Below are positions 5,936 through 50,148 of a stretch of DNA of 64,000 bases, piece by piece. The notes under the pieces are model-generated. The model was not told the origin of the DNA. It did no database searches and saw only the letters and a list, made by a program, of their open reading frames with translations. This DNA is from Thermopolyspora flexuosa (GTDB taxonomy: Bacteria > Actinomycetota > Actinomycetes > Streptosporangiales > Streptosporangiaceae). The stretch spans positions 372,001 to 436,000 of the forward strand of contig NZ_VFPQ01000002.1 in NCBI RefSeq assembly GCF_006716785.1. The letters are read 5' to 3'. Numbering within the stretch: position 1 is the first letter of the stretch; each line of letters opens with the position of its first letter. The position numbers were made by a program, and so were the translations under genes.

Positions 5936-6952
5936 ATGGACGGCACGGCACCGGTGGGCGACGAGCGGGGCACGACCGAGCGGGTGCTCGCCCTGCTCGG
6001 GCTGCTCCAGCAGCGGCAGGTGTGGAGCGGCCCGGAGCTCGCCGAGCGGCTCGGGGTCACGCCGCGCACGGTACGGCGGGACGTGGAACGGCTGCGCGCG
6101 CTCGGCTACCCGGTGCACGCCGAGCGCGGCGCCGGCGGCGGCTACCGGCTCGGCCGCGGCCAGGACCTGCCGCCGCTGCTGCTCGACGACGAGGAGGCGA
6201 TCGCCACGGCGGTCTCGCTGCTCGCGGGCGCGGGCGGCGCGGTCGCGGGGGCCGGGGAGGCCGCGCTGCGCGCGCTGACCAAGCTCGACCGGGTGCTGCC
6301 CACCCGGCTGCGGCACGAGGTGCGCGCGCTCGCCGCGTCGGTGGAGTCGTTCGGCGGCGGGGGCCGCACCCCGGTGGACGCCGAGACGCTGATGACGCTG
6401 GCCCGGGCGTGCCGGGACGAGGTGGAGGTCGAGTTCGCCTACCCGTCCGGGGGCGAGGTGCGCCGCCGGCGGGTCGAGCCGTACCGGCTGGTCACCTCCG
6501 ACCGGCGCTGGTACCTGTTCGCCTACGACCTCGACCGCGCCGACTGGCGCAGCTTCCGGGTCGATCGCATGTCGGACGTGTCGGCACGAACCTGGCGGTT
6601 CCGGCCGCGCCCGGCCCCGGACGCCGCCGCCTACGTGCAGGAGGGCGTGACGAGCCGCGTCTATCCGCACCAGGCGCGGTTCCTCGTGCACGCGCCCGCC
6701 GAGACGGTGCGCGCGCAGATCCCGCCGTCGGCCGCCGTGGTACGGCCGAGCGGGCCCGGCCGCTGCGAGGTCCAGGCCGGTGCCGCCGACCTCGACCTCC
6801 TGCTCCTGCACATGGCCCGGCTCGGGCACGACTTCGAGGTGCTCGACCCGCCCGAGCTCGCCGAACGCTGCCACGCGCTCGCCCGGCGGCTGCTCGCGGC
6901 CGCGGACCCGCGGGCGCCGGAGCCCGCGGCACGGGCCTCCGCATCCGGATGA
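5936..6952 (+). CDS. YafY/PafBC-type WYL-domain transcription regulator
   Basis: A 338-residue DeoR/HTH_11 plus WYL regulator. The winged helix covers about residues 10-75 (GPELAERLGVTPRTVRRDVE) and is followed by GAGGGYRLGRG. The WYL domain runs over about residues 155-240 (VEFAYPSGGEV, then RRWYLFAYDLDRADWRSFRV) with a WCX-like C-terminal domain after it. WYL domains sense ligands or single-stranded nucleic acid. The gene is divergent from the DinB/VOC pair, its likely target. It uses the GTA-CGG Val-Arg codon pair twice (near 6070 and 6748), part of the window-wide hexamer bias. Confidence 0.88.
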   Translation: MDGTAPVGDERGTTERVLALLGLLQQRQVWSGPELAERLGVTPRTVRRDVERLRALGYPVHAERGAGGGYRLGRGQDLPPLLLDDEEAIATAVSLLAGAGGAVAGAGEAALRALTKLDRVLPTRLRHEVRALAASVESFGGGGRTPVDAETLMTLARACRDEVEVEFAYPSGGEVRRRRVEPYRLVTSDRRWYLFAYDLDRADWRSFRVDRMSDVSARTWRFRPRPAPDAAAYVQEGVTSRVYPHQARFLVHAPAETVRAQIPPSAAVVRPSGPGRCEVQAGAADLDLLLLHMARLGHDFEVLDPPELAERCHALARRLLAAADPRAPEPAARASASG

Positions 6953-7249: not shown

Positions 7250-7755
7250 TGCCGCACCACCGGCGGGAACGGAAAACGGGACGCCAGGGGGTATGCGGCA
7301 GGGTGGCCGAAAGGCATTCCCGGCCGTTCCACGGCCGATTTCGGAAAGGCGGCGGCCCGGGGTGTGTCATGTCGTGTCAGGCGAACGTCACGCCGCCGGA
7401 TACGGCGAGGCCAGGCAGGAAAGCCGTGGGTACGGCCCGTGTTTTCGCAGACGGCGATTCTCCGGTTCGGGCGACGTGTCCCGCCAAGTCGCCGGTGGCC
7501 CTCGGTCCTGCCGTACCGTGCCGGACGGTCCATGGCACTCGCAGGCCGGCCTGCGGCGATGGGCGTGACGCGCGGGTTCGCGGGTGACGGTGCCATACCG
7601 ACGCGCATCAGGAGGGCCGGGGATCAGGGCGGTGGCGGGAACCCGACAGGCCATCGGCGCGGCATATCACAGGGGGCGCGGAACGGCAACTCAATTATTC
7701 GATGGCCCAAAAATTCAGTTTAGCCGGAAAGGACACACGATCTAGGCTTCCCGAT
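7250..7755. other. Intergenic region upstream of the vWA/ARPP-1 pair
   Basis: About 500 bases without a gene I can support. The right end (about 7685-7730) is locally AT-rich (AACTCAATTATTCGATGG) and probably holds the promoter of the vWA gene. A GGAAAGGA lies near 7725-7732 but is too far from the ATG at 7756 to decide the start. Confidence 0.4.
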
Positions 7756-9072
7756 ATGAACATGTCGGAGCTGCTCACGCATTTCCGCACGCACGGCACG
7801 CCGCTGACGCTTTCGCGCCGCGGCGAACTGGCGTGGGACGACGCGGAAGTCCACCGGGAGGCATGGGAGGCCGACCCGGAGGGCTACGCCCTGCTCGCGC
7901 TCGTCCCCGGCGTGCGGCAGTGGCAGCGCGCCCGGGTGTTGCTGCGCATCCTCGCCTCCTCCCAGGCGCACCTCGCCGACCCCGCCCGCGCCGTGCTCGC
8001 CAAGGCGACCCGGGCGCTGCTGTTCGGCCTCGCCCCGGACCAGGCCGTCACGGCGCTGCTCGCGGTGCGCCGCCTGCGGGCGAACCACAAGCACACCACC
8101 CGGGCGATGGTCGCGTTCGCGCTGGAGCACCCGGACGGCGACGCGCTCGTCGCGGCCCGGCGCCCCGCCCTCGTCGACTGCCTCGAGCACGCGCTCGGCA
8201 AGTCGACGGCCCGCGCCTGCGCCCGCCTGATCGCCGAGGGCGACGTCGGCTCGCCGTACCTGCGGAGCCGCCTGCTGCGGTTCACCCGGGACCCGGAGAC
8301 CGCGATGCGCCGGGTCCGCGCCCTGTACGGCCCGGGCACACCCAACGCGCCGGTGCCGCAGGAGCCGCCGGTCCCGATCGACCCGCCGCGCGAGGACCCG
8401 GAGGTGGTGACGGTGACCAACCGGGGCGACATCGCCGCGACGCTCGTCCACCTCTACCGGGGCGGCCCGGAGTCCGAGCTGCGCCCGGCGCTCGCCCGGT
8501 ACGTCGCCGAGGCGACCCGCGGCCTGCCGCGCCTGGAAGCGCACGTCGCCCTCGTGCTCGACACCTCGGCGTCGATGCGCGGGTACGGCGAGCGGGAGTG
8601 GGCGATCATGTCGCAGGCCGAGGCGCTGCGCCTGGTGCTCGCGGAGGTGTGCGAGCGGCTCACCGTGATCGAGACCGGCGGGCGGCCGGACGCCCCCGCG
8701 GGCGCCACCGACCTCGCCACCGGCCTGCTCGACGCCCTCGCCGCCGGGCCGGACCTCGTGGCGATCGTCACCGACGGGTACGAGAACACGCTGCCGGGCG
8801 ACCTCGCCCGGGTGGCGGCGAGCCTGCCGGGCGCGGGCGTGACCACGCCGGTGGTGCTGTGCCAGGCGACCTTCGCCCGCAGCGACGACCTGACCTTCCG
8901 TACCCCGGCCCCTGACCTGCCCCGCGCGCGGTTCTGGCACCAGGACGACTTCGCCGAGCTGCTGCCGTGGCTGCTGTGTCACTGCGCCCCCGGCCGGGCC
9001 TGGATCCGGCGGGCGGTGCTCGACCGGCTGTCCGGCCGCGCCGCGGCGGCACTGGAAGGAGGACGTGCATGA
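7756..9072 (+). CDS. Ro60-like protein: helical repeats plus vWA domain
   Basis: A 438-residue protein. Residues ~1-200 are predicted all-helical and repeat-like, and residues ~260-430 form a von Willebrand A domain with a complete MIDAS: Asp269-Thr-Ser-Ala-Ser273, Thr318 and Asp340 (VTDGYEN). A HEAT-like helical ring followed by a vWA domain is the architecture of the RNA-binding Ro60/TROVE proteins. I cannot show TROVE homology by eye, so the link is architectural. The start is uncertain: ATG 7756 is used, ATG 7702 is in frame upstream. The stop overlaps the next ATG (ATGA at 9069-9072), so both proteins are probably made together. Function unproven; RNA quality control or repair is one possibility. 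Confidence 0.7.
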   Translation: MNMSELLTHFRTHGTPLTLSRRGELAWDDAEVHREAWEADPEGYALLALVPGVRQWQRARVLLRILASSQAHLADPARAVLAKATRALLFGLAPDQAVTALLAVRRLRANHKHTTRAMVAFALEHPDGDALVAARRPALVDCLEHALGKSTARACARLIAEGDVGSPYLRSRLLRFTRDPETAMRRVRALYGPGTPNAPVPQEPPVPIDPPREDPEVVTVTNRGDIAATLVHLYRGGPESELRPALARYVAEATRGLPRLEAHVALVLDTSASMRGYGEREWAIMSQAEALRLVLAEVCERLTVIETGGRPDAPAGATDLATGLLDALAAGPDLVAIVTDGYENTLPGDLARVAASLPGAGVTTPVVLCQATFARSDDLTFRTPAPDLPRARFWHQDDFAELLPWLLCHCAPGRAWIRRAVLDRLSGRAAAALEGGRA

Positions 9073-10034
9073 CCGAGCTCGCGACGCTGATGCCCGCGCC
9101 GGTCGACCTGACGGGCTACCGTCTCGGCCCGCCCCAGCAGGCCGGCGCGCTCACCGTGGTGCCGGTATGGGGGCCCGAGCACGCCGGTCTGGTGCCGCCG
9201 CGCGGCGGGCTCAAGCTCCGGCGGGTCGTCGGCTACGGCGACCTCGAGCTGCACAACGGCGCGCCGGAGGGCGTGGCGGTCGTGCCGCTGCACATCGGCT
9301 ACATCCAGCACGGCGCGCAGAACCACGCGCTCTGCTCGGCCGCGCTGATCGCCGCCGGGCAGACCCGCCGGTTCGAGAACGCCTGCTGCGTGCAGGCCGG
9401 GCAGGGCGGCTACCTGCAGGGCCGCGACCAGTGGTTCTTCGTGCTGCCGCTCGAGCTGCGCGCCGAGGCGCTGCGGCTGCGCGGCACCCTGGGCTTCGCC
9501 AAGCTGTGGGACGCCATCGCCAGGCTGAACGAGGCGTACGGCCTGCCGAAGCGCGGCCACCTGGAGCAGATCCTCACCCGCAAGCGGCCGATCCTGACCC
9601 AGTGGCAGAGCCGGCTGGAGCCGCTGCCGGGCCAGGTCGGGGCGCTGTTCTTCGTCGGCGAGCGGTTCGCCGGGATGGAGATCACGCCCAGCCCGCGGTA
9701 CTTCGCCGACATGTGGATGCCGCTGGTCTGCTTCGCGTACGGCGTGGCCGCCTGGCAGGCCGAGCCCGAGCCGCGGCCGGCCGAGCCGTACCGGGCCGGG
9801 AGCCTCGCCGGGCTGCGCGCGGAGCTGGAGCGTGACCGGGCGGCCCGGATGGAGCGGGTGGCGTCCTGGCTCGCCGAGCCCGCGGCCGGCGGCGAGTGGA
9901 CGGTCGAGGAGGAGGAGCGCTACCTCGACCTGCGGCTGTCCACCGTGACCGGGAACGGGATCGCCGGGCAGGTGGTCACCCGCGACGGGCGGCCGGTGTA
10001 CGCGTCGCTGTTCTCCACCCGCTGGGAGCGGTGA
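9069..10034 (+). CDS. ARPP-1/DUF6569-like protein
   Basis: A 321-residue protein without signal peptide or membrane segment. The core (LHIGYIQHGAQNHALCSAAL, an RRFENACCVQAGQGGY stretch, then ALFFVGERFAGMEI) resembles the ARPP-1 (DUF6569) family, whose activity is not established. The double Cys in NACCVQ and the conserved GQGGY are candidates for function. The C-terminal 70 residues are charged. The ATG at 9069 follows GGAAGGAGGACG and overlaps the vWA stop. The conserved neighbour relation suggests a joint function with the Ro60-like protein. The 3' end of the gene lies inside the left copy of a long direct repeat. Confidence 0.65.
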   Translation: MTELATLMPAPVDLTGYRLGPPQQAGALTVVPVWGPEHAGLVPPRGGLKLRRVVGYGDLELHNGAPEGVAVVPLHIGYIQHGAQNHALCSAALIAAGQTRRFENACCVQAGQGGYLQGRDQWFFVLPLELRAEALRLRGTLGFAKLWDAIARLNEAYGLPKRGHLEQILTRKRPILTQWQSRLEPLPGQVGALFFVGERFAGMEITPSPRYFADMWMPLVCFAYGVAAWQAEPEPRPAEPYRAGSLAGLRAELERDRAARMERVASWLAEPAAGGEWTVEEEERYLDLRLSTVTGNGIAGQVVTRDGRPVYASLFSTRWER

Positions 10035-10292
10035 GCCGGGAAAACGCGTTGCGCCGGGGCGGCGGCCTCGGGTTGGATGATCACTGCGGGAACTGCGCCG
10101 GGCATGGCGGTCCCACTCCACTCATTCCAGGTGAGTTCGTTAGGAGACGTGGTCTCCTCTTTCGTTGTGCGGAGGCTCGTCACCGGAGTCCGCCAGGGCG
10201 CCGGCCGCCCGTCCCGCACCCGAGCGGTCCCTCACGCGACGAGGGCCGGACGCGGCCCGGAAGGATCACCGGGCCACCCGGCTCACGCCTCC
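10024..10292. repeat. Long imperfect direct repeat, left copy
   Basis: This block is repeated in order at 10349-10607. Shared segments include GGGAGCGGTGAGCCGGG, GAAAACGCGT, GGGAACTGCGCCGGGCATGG, CTCATTCCAG, GCGCCGGCCGCCCGTCCCGC and TCACCGGGCCACCCGGCTCA. Its left end is the 3' end of the ARPP-1-like gene. Its right end reads, on the minus strand, like the last residues of a gene (REREA then stop), similar to the true end (LLEQEA) of the gene at 10598. Otherwise no gene is seen between 10035 and 10597. Confidence 0.75.
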
Positions 10293-10348
10293 CGCTCCCG
10301 CATGCCGCGGCATCGCCCCCACGTCCCGGCCTGCGGCCGTTCGTCGCC

Positions 10349-10607
10349 GGGAGCGGTGAGCCGGGGAGGGCACGGAAAACGCGTCGCGGCAGGGTGGCGG
10401 CCCGGGTTGAAATGATCAGCACGCGGGAACTGCGCCGGGCATGGCGGTCACGCTCCCTCATTCCAGATGAGTGACGGCGATGCCGAGCCACGGACTCGGT
10501 TTCGATGGAGACCCGTCAGCGCGCCGGCCGCCCGTCCCGCACCCGGTCGCCGGCCTCGTGGCCGAAGGTGGCCCGAAGGGTCACCGGGCCACCCGGCTCA
10601 CGCCTCC
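10349..10607. repeat. Long imperfect direct repeat, right copy
   Basis: Right copy of the block at 10024-10292, in the same orientation. It includes the last codons of the gene at 10598-11008. The two copies differ by small insertions and substitutions, so the duplication is not very recent. The 56 bases between the copies hold a GC-rich stretch with no obvious feature. Confidence 0.75.
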
Positions 10608-41720: not shown

Positions 41721-41795
41721 GGGGCGTTAGCTCAATGGTAGAGCTGCAGACTTTTAATCTGTAGGTTCAGGGTTCGAGCCCCTGGCGCCCCACCA
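41721..41795 (+). tRNA. tRNA-Lys (anticodon UUU), CCA encoded
   Basis: A complete cloverleaf: acceptor GGGGCGT with GCGCCCC, D-arm GCTC-AATGGTA-GAGC, anticodon arm GCAGA-CTTTTAA-TCTGT with anticodon TTT, five-base variable loop AGGTT, and T-arm CAGGG-TTCGAGC-CCCTG. The discriminator A is at 41792 and CCA is encoded at 41793-41795. It reads AAA/AAG lysine codons. The 3' half is not repeated elsewhere in the window, so there is no sign of element integration here. Confidence 0.97.
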
Positions 41796-49747: not shown

Positions 49748-49795
49748 TCACGACATGTAGGTGCGTGACGGTGTCAGAGGCACAAGATATAGTGG
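49748..49795 (+). promoter_or_regulatory. Pair of NrdR-like boxes in the nrdAB promoter
   Basis: The box at 49780-49795 (core CACAAGATATAGTG) matches the NrdR palindrome closely. A weaker copy at 49748-49763 (core CACGACATGTAGGTG) starts 32 bases upstream, the three-helical-turn spacing typical for paired NrdR boxes. The TATAGT inside the strong box could be the -10 element. NrdR represses ribonucleotide reductase genes when dATP/ATP levels are high. Confidence 0.65.
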
Positions 49796-49801
49796 CCCGC
49801 G

Positions 49802-49993
49802 TAGCCGGTTCGGCCGGGCATCCAGTCCGGCCGGGGTAACAGGGAACCCGGTGCGAGTCCGGGACTGCCCCGCAGCGGTGAGCGGGAACGACCGTCGTCG
49901 AGCACACTGGGCCCGTCGTGGCCTGGGAAGTGACGGCCAGTAGGTGACCGGAGTGATCCGGTCGTGCCCGCGAGTCCGAAGACCTGCCGGCTA
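49802..49993 (+). promoter_or_regulatory. Cobalamin (B12) riboswitch upstream of nrdAB
   Basis: The closing stem is TAGCCGG (49802-49808) with CCGGCTA (49987-49993). Between them lie the conserved elements: GGTAACAGGGAACCCGGTGC, GAGTCCGGGACTGCCCCGCA with GCGGTGAGCG, and the terminal GCGAGTCCGAAGACCTGCC. The nrdA start is 155 bases downstream, leaving a GC-rich expression platform. As described for Streptomyces, it should switch off class Ia reductase when B12 allows the B12-dependent class II enzyme (not in this window) to work. Confidence 0.95.
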
Positions 49994-50148
49994 TGCCGTG
50001 CCCGCCGAGCCGAGACGGGTGCGGCGGTCCGAGGCCGCGCGGGACGGCCGACGGCTGCGACGGCATCATGCGTTCGCGCGCGGTGGCGTCCCGGCCTGTC
50101 CGCGTCCGCGTGGCCTTCCGTGGCGGGAGACACGAGGAGAGCGAACAG

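Follow-up and report, generated by a model that had tools for sequence, protein, structure and literature searches.

The window analyzed here is a stretch of 64,000 nucleotides from the actinobacterium Thermopolyspora flexuosa (contig NZ_VFPQ01000002.1, positions 372,001 to 436,000 of the forward strand). It carries a pair of overlapping genes, encoding a Ro60-like protein (open reading frame 1, ORF 1) and an ARPP-1 family protein (ORF 2), and, directly downstream, two copies of a small RNA element resembling Y RNA. The results showed that the gene pair is conserved, that the model of ORF 1 has a Ro60-like fold, that a dedicated, covarying RNA accompanies the pair, and that tRNA genes are recurrently linked to it. 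We regard it as probable that the locus specifies a ribonucleoprotein of the Ro60 type that is joined by a new enzymatic partner and targets tRNA-like or damaged RNA. The role of Ro60 and Y RNA in bacteria is largely open, and a three-part locus of Ro60-like protein, ARPP, and small RNA allows both this role and the activity of ARPP to be tested; the module also ties Ro60-type ribonucleoproteins to tRNA arrays and large phages.

A conserved pair of overlapping genes

ORF 1 (438 amino acids, 7756..9072, + strand) runs from an ATG at 7756 to a stop codon at 9070–9072; its start is uncertain, as another in-frame ATG lies at 7702. ORF 2, a putative enzyme of 321 amino acids (9069..10034, + strand), starts with an ATG at 9069 and ends with a stop codon at 10032–10034. 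The two-gene unit proposed in the first-pass annotation is real: the ATG of ORF 2 shares bases 9069..9072 (ATGA, + strand) with the stop codon of ORF 1, an overlap that points to translational coupling. The GC content at third codon positions is 0.94 for ORF 1 and 0.96 for ORF 2. The pair is located on contig C2 of the actinobacterial genome designated G000 (loci and genomes are cited by our L and G labels), and its closest named homologues are found in Streptosporangiaceae such as Nonomuraea. Neither protein has a known label in PADLOC, NCBIfam, or PHROGs at E ≤ 0.01.

Conserved co-occurrence of the two genes had been set beforehand as a test of the unit. For the bacterial set, genome contigs were scanned with seven seeds and a single peptide pattern that has DG[YF]EN at its end. 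Of 103 confirmed loci, the best 80 were analyzed, a sample selected by that motif. These loci belong to Actinobacteria, Cyanobacteria, Bacteroidetes, Blastocatellia, a Firmicute, Planctomycetes, Armatimonadota, Myxobacteria, Deltaproteobacteria, and Gammaproteobacteria. An ARPP-like gene was found directly downstream on the same strand in 75 of the 80, the genes overlapping in 30 of the 75 pairs and by exactly 4 bases in 19. The exceptions were L074, where the contig stops 32 bases past the match and no vWA gene was called, and L076, L088, L108, and L128, where 20, 50, 501, and 236 bases of contig remained, respectively. Viral relatives came from an alignment-led scan; a scan of viral contigs with ORF 1 alone gave none. 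The pair was present in 70 of 80 viral loci, which represent 30 clusters at 70% identity, and the 4-base overlap in 4 of those 70; seven of the other loci had no vWA call and three ended less than 400 bases from the vWA gene. The two genes thus co-occur as anticipated, and chance pairing, which we considered, is rejected on these counts.

A second version of the pair consists of a vWA protein and ARPP-2 (PF22549). ARPP profile scores were weak in six of the 75 bacterial pairs (L124 and L129–L133), and the three of these that were checked (L124, L130, and L133) were all ARPP-2. The genome of the window carries two paralogous pairs, one of the ARPP-1 type (in the window) and one of the ARPP-2 type (L003, at about 5003684 of G000:C1). 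vWA paralogues similar to that of L003 were also matched in twelve related genomes (L009–L020). Within the phylum, 41 of 396 genomes encode ARPP-1, and a vWA profile found no match in the ARPP loci L024–L053 (about 1.5 kb of flank each). The co-occurrence is one-way, ARPP-1 being found also without a vWA partner.

Full-length ORF 1 was found in 4 of 198 related genomes (G000, G001, G004, and G062). A shortened homologue comprising the N-terminal part was noted in G109 (L008). The pair is also present on plasmid pB6464 of Alkaliphilus and in the 462-kb phage LR756500.1. On the Alkaliphilus plasmid, the pair is preceded by a TerD gene (L022:2837-3604). When neighbor genes, taken from codon-usage gene calls, were clustered, the flanking groups present in at least four loci were confined to actinobacteria with two exceptions: one group extends to a lone Bacteroidetes locus (L122), and the other encodes an RNA ligase.

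This patchy distribution among relatives, together with the fact that large phages and a plasmid carry the pair and that tRNAs or tRNA-like moieties adjoin it, could be explained by an RNA-gated conflict module. The Y-like RNA would then silence an ARPP or vWA effector, which would be freed by anticodon-nuclease cleavage of the tRNA-like head or by phage takeover, and phages would use the pair for superinfection exclusion or counter-defence. We consider this explanation unlikely: neither protein has a PADLOC match at E ≤ 1, and the genes preceding the pair in phage group 2 resemble replication genes (judged by eye), a context which suggests a housekeeping role there.

ORF 1 is Ro60-like by fold

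The Pfam scan of ORF 1 returned VWA_2 alone, below threshold (E 0.034). The AlphaFold2 model, built on an alignment of 66 sequences, had a mean predicted local distance difference test score (pLDDT) of 95.3 and a predicted template modelling score (pTM) of 0.93; it comprises thirteen helices up to about residue 253, followed by a vWA domain at about 260–420. The metal ion-dependent adhesion site (MIDAS) is complete. All 66 aligned homologues share D269, S271, S273, and D340, and T318 is retained in 57 of them and replaced by serine in the other 9; the invariance of D340 is partly built in, because the homologue scans used the pattern DG[YF]EN around this residue. The helical N-terminus and MIDAS-competent vWA domain attributed to the protein in the first-pass annotation were thus borne out in the model.

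When the full-length model was searched against the PDB with Foldseek, six chains were found at E ≤ 0.001, every one of them Ro60/Rsr. The top match in VIA-align was the crystal structure of a Trove domain (9kop; Z 13.8, root-mean-square deviation (rmsd) 6.9), with 332 aligned residues spanning ORF 1 residues 1 to 426, and the Ro60 of phage phiLo (9l5y) was matched with Z 12.7. The Ro60-type rows aligned over 304–332 residues and the vWA-only rows shown over at most 174. In its best solved-structure matches, as in its combination of a helical part with a MIDAS vWA domain, ORF 1 thus resembles Ro60/Rsr. Comparison by hhalign with six true TROVE proteins gave a probability of 92.7% (E 4e-7) over residues 229–372 only, which correspond to the vWA domain and the helix preceding it.

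The proposed Ro60 architecture is supported in part, by the modeled fold and by the profile of the vWA domain with its preceding helix; membership of the TROVE Pfam family, in contrast, did not hold. ORF 1 itself had no match to TROVE (PF05731) at E ≤ 1 and differs from Ro60 in lying outside that family by the scan done, and its N-terminal part (about 250 residues) is shorter than that of Ro60. A TROVE gene of the same genome (L004) matched the family at 2.1e-16, and G000 has two TROVE/Ro60 genes less than 3 kb apart (C1:2940225 and C1:2942964). The suggestion that the N-terminal half is TROVE-like was sustained in part, by searches made with the full-length model. The description of ORF 1 as Ro60-like by its modeled fold appears largely right, and we do not claim TROVE membership.

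A Y-RNA-like element follows the pair

Alignment of intergenic regions revealed a conserved non-coding block after the ARPP gene in three actinobacterial groups. The block corresponds to an RNA element of 100–133 nucleotides, the ends of which pair (CGGGAACUGnGCCGG with GCCGGCCnCCnGUCCCG) in a closing stem carrying a GAACU bulge. In the window, copy 1 of this predicted Y-RNA-like noncoding RNA (10087..10217, + strand), identified from cross-locus conservation, covariation, and fold stability, begins 52 nucleotides past the ORF 2 stop codon; its 5' CGGGAACUGnGCCGG is paired with its 3' GCCGGCCnCCnGUCCCG, and the head consists of hairpins. Its fold had a z-score of -2.6, and 1 of 200 shuffled sequences was equally stable. 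Copy 2 (10424..10540, + strand) was found by the covariance model R1 (72.6 bits, E 1e-12). Its minimum-energy fold has the same closing stem; the z-score was only -1.4, and 15 of 200 shuffles were equally stable.

In 35 actinobacterial RNAs, 13 of 26 pairs were changed on both sides, 96.1% of the cells could pair, and none of 500 shuffles was as good, while slid controls dropped to 31–44%. Across phyla, 22 of 26 pairs covaried among 48 aligned matches, again with none of 500 shuffles as good; this 48-row alignment was fitted to model R1 and includes one doubtful row, from L085. Searching 83 sources (1.0 Mb) with R1 yielded these 48 matches in 43 sources, the window included, and 47 of them were downstream of the pair on its strand. 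The off-target match, on the other strand in L085 (E 0.1), was taken as false, a true copy being present in L085 too. Beyond its training set R1 detected second copies in the window and in the nearest relative (L054), a copy in L101 located 3.1 kb past ARPP, and cyanobacterial copies in L086 (two), L087, L089, and L090 (two). Other phyla were represented by a Firmicute (L097), an acidobacterium (L096), an armatimonadote (L103), and, weakly, a myxobacterium (L104, E 0.002); the L086 and L104 copies had already been found by motif before R1 was applied. The remaining 40 of the 83 sources gave no match, and a set made up of 55 of the 80 viral loci with the pair plus 15 further loci gave only the window's own two copies, in L001. 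Across 58 sources, model R2 matched only L087, which belongs to its own training set.

Among the 198 related genomes, the RNA was detected in G000 (twice), G001, G004, and G062, the same four that carry full-length ORF 1; in G109, which has the N-terminal part of ORF 1 only, R1 did not find it. In L086, a promoter-like pair (TTGACA-18-TATGAT) precedes the first copy; the second contains T-arm-like sequence and has, past its end, a hairpin and a T-run (all judged by eye).

A bacterial Y RNA is defined by a gene beside a Ro60-type gene and by 5' and 3' ends that together form a bulged stem, and the element shows both features. It had no match in Rfam 15 (window 10030–10300, E ≤ 10), which may set it apart from Ro60/Y RNA systems; Rfam 15 also gave no bacterial Y RNA match at TROVE loci, so that its coverage of Y RNA is uncertain. 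A dedicated, covarying RNA element, a putative transcript, thus accompanies the pair. The first-pass statement that no Y RNA is nearby was wrong, as two copies lie directly downstream of the pair, and the notion of a minimal module loses its support with it, since the two-copy element adjoins the genes. RtcB and PNPase, also stated to be absent, were not among the neighboring ORFs scanned with Pfam, no window-wide search for either having been made.

tRNA genes, Y-like stems, and RNA ligase near the pair

ARAGORN analysis of 48 loci, counting within 13.3 kb, revealed 16–41 tRNA/tmRNA genes in eight (L106, L107, L111, L113, L115, L118, L125, and L126), which belong to planctomycetes, myxobacteria, and other proteobacteria. 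Another eight (L023, L088, L090, L091, L105, L119, L121, and L122) had 3–7, and the other 32 had 0–2. Of 28 scanned phage loci, 24 contained one or more tRNA genes, the maximum being 37. Such arrays around the pair, and the tRNA genes near it in phages, would be expected if the pair were an array accessory that matures or checks supernumerary tRNAs, with the stand-alone RNA as a relic or regulator. We consider this very unlikely, since actinobacterial members have the RNA and yet the three of them that were scanned for tRNAs (L054, L061, and L070) hold 0, 1, and 0, respectively. Neither R1 nor R2 detected the RNA in the tRNA-array and phage loci searched, except in L090.

In five loci (L114, L117, L147, L148, and L150), a predicted tRNA was found inside a Y-like closing stem, as judged by eye and from the stem pattern; the heads of the window copies consist of hairpins only. 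At L148:7757-7883 (phage), the Y-like stem seems by eye to enclose a circularly permuted tRNA, the 3' half with CCA lying ahead of the 5' half. An element common to 15 phage loci, located ahead of the vWA gene, has 23 predicted pairs, of which 6 show double changes.

A first pattern for Y-like stems proved too loose and was abandoned (in bacteria, 134 hits compared with 61 on the opposite strand; in viral loci, 31 compared with 82). A stricter pattern, still noisy outside actinobacteria, gave in actinobacteria 28 downstream hits on the strand, 1 on the other strand, and 1.7 in simulated sequence, with 4, 1, and 1.7 upstream. The corresponding numbers were 16, 5, and 6.6 upstream and 12, 6, and 6.5 downstream for other loci, 7, 3, and 3.1 upstream and 5, 1, and 2.2 downstream for phage group 1, and 11, 5, and 7.1 downstream for phage group 2. 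In a Microscilla record, the tRNA genes upstream of the pair are interspersed with five tandem AAAGAACTGA...CTATCTTT elements (L105:882-1884).

An RNA ligase (PF09414 and PF21189) was encoded near the pair in three closely related cyanobacteria (L088, L090, and L091), a planctomycete (L106), and two phages (L190 and L196); L197 has a fragment of it. When 15 genomes were searched for PF21189, four had one match each; in the genomes of L090 and L106, this sole match is the one at the pair.

ORF 2 belongs to the ARPP-1 family

ORF 2 matched Pfam ARPP-1 (PF20208) with 119.6 bits against a cut-off of 27 (E 2.2e-34), confirming its first-pass assignment as ARPP-1-like. The residues most conserved were C107 (61 of 65), Q84 (60 of 65), H86 (60 of 65), and Q112 (59 of 65), and this Gln/His/Cys/Gln set fits the remark in PMC9503650 (section 3.8) that ARPP has conserved Cys and Gln. 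The AlphaFold model of ORF 2 (pLDDT 94.3) had no match in the PDB at E ≤ 0.001, the best VIA Z being 2.6. ARPP-1 thus has no solved relative resembling this model among the structures searched, which does not in itself make its fold a new one. The literature searched, outside which lay most subscription papers, including the bacterial Y RNA survey, contained no report of an ARPP activity, no mention of DUF6569, and no description of a vWA/ARPP pair with an RNA, which suggests that the pair with its RNA has not been described before.

The account of ARPP in PMC9503650 (section 3.8) bears on another explanation, a countermeasure to ADP-ribosylation. The vWA protein would be a Mg-dependent peptide-binding chaperone presenting ADP-ribosylated or damaged proteins, ARPP would process the ADP-ribose sugar, and the RNA would be a separate regulator. 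The same section lists both vWA and ARPP in systems centered on ADP-ribosylglycohydrolase (ARG), with a vWA gene among the associated chaperones, and proposes that ARPP acts on the ribose of ADP-ribose; such a role is possible. Three ARG genes (PF03747) are present in the genome of the window, and phage LR756500.1 has a macro-domain gene about 3.5 kb from the pair. However, all three ARG matches lie on contig C1 and none is near the pair on C2, unlike the arrangement in ARG-centered conflict systems, and no ARG was found among 20 flanking proteins scanned at other loci. The three ARPP pairs without ARG described in that paper involve HIRAN, a WYL transcription factor, or a deacetylase and none a vWA protein, and the text of section 3.8 describes no small RNA gene. 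In addition, the closest solved folds belong to an RNA-binding family, Ro60, and this explanation accounts for neither the covarying RNA nor the tRNA arrays. We therefore find the ADP-ribosylation countermeasure unlikely and favor the Ro60-type ribonucleoprotein.

Proposed mechanism and comparison with known systems

In such a ribonucleoprotein, the helical and vWA domains of ORF 1 would bind the GAACU-bulged closing stem of the adjoining small RNAs, as Ro60 binds Y RNA. We infer that ORF 1 binds the small RNA because of the adjacency, the co-occurrence, and the fold. The RNA head, which is a seemingly whole predicted tRNA in some phage and planctomycete loci and a hairpin set in the window, might present or mimic tRNA, or gate the access of damaged RNA. 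ARPP would be the catalytic subunit; that it works on RNA is the weakest step, a guess based on the tRNA and ligase links. Its target would most likely be the ribose or an end of damaged or non-functional tRNA, reached via the Gln/His/Cys/Gln set, and the repair may in certain lineages be finished by an RNA ligase. More tentatively, and with less than even confidence, we propose a new class of RNA-guided or RNA-gated enzymes in bacteria of many phyla and in large phages, in which a Ro60-like scaffold and a tRNA-headed Y-like RNA might deliver ARPP to damaged tRNA for tRNA repair or as a defence against anticodon nucleases.

Several observations weigh against this interpretation. One vWA-only chain equaled Ro60 rows in VIA-align Z (12.7), and the query-normalized TM-scores of ORF 1 against Ro60 were 0.26–0.42 with an rmsd of 7–10; the resemblance is thus one of arrangement and not of exact shape, and the ring of ORF 1 may differ in shape from that of Ro60 or be open. 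The 66 members matched 46 families, and TROVE was not among the best 25 of these, so that, given the order of listing, it could match at most one member, at E above 0.089. Neither R1 nor R2 matched any of the searched planctomycete, Bacteroidetes, deltaproteobacterial, plasmid, or phage loci, or some of the cyanobacterial and actinobacterial ones, and the genome-wide R1 search used stricter filters that lose weak matches. Where both models fail, a Y-like RNA is suggested by the noisy stem pattern and by recurrence of sequence, and in phage group 2 the upstream count of that pattern was 35, with 22 on the other strand and 10.4 in simulated sequence. None of the doubly changed pairs in the 15-phage element falls in the outer stem, which shows no covariation because it never varies. 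No sigma-70 promoter match was found near the window RNAs. Because tRNA genes are common in large phages, their presence near phage pairs carries little weight, and in two of the four genomes bearing PF21189 the match lay outside the stretch examined around the pair.

The module resembles Ro60/Rsr with Y RNA in having a small RNA with pairing ends beside the protein gene and, in some members, what may be a tRNA-like head; the steady partner, in contrast, is ARPP and not RtcB or PNPase. As in the rsr-yrlBA-rtcBA operon, an RNA ligase sometimes adjoins the pair, although it belongs to the PF09414 family and not to RtcB. In Deinococcus, Y RNA tethers Rsr to PNPase, according to PMC7790460. Judged by its anatomy, the module may be the same kind of ribonucleoprotein as Deinococcus Rsr, with ARPP replacing the nuclease or ligase. 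For phages or Borgs, TROVE proteins are mentioned in PMC7824862 and PMC11208441, and a Ro60-related protein in PMC7765460. Our phage pairs are similar to the jumbo-phage TROVE proteins of PMC7824862, which its authors assign to RNA repair, in that Ro60-type proteins occur in large phages; unlike the ROT/TROVE proteins described there, they have no TROVE match and are accompanied by ARPP.

Other features of the window

A WYL-domain regulator is encoded upstream of the pair (5936–6952), beside divergent genes for DinB, a glyoxalase, and a PNPOx-like oxidase. It was considered as a third partner and rejected: a WYL-like gene was present in 5 of 82 gene-called loci and adjoins the pair in L054 only. 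At the edge of the window, a gene for an NgoMIV-family restriction enzyme (121–867) lies in DNA of lower GC content. A tRNA gene is located at 41721–41792, and a cobalamin riboswitch at 49789–50005.

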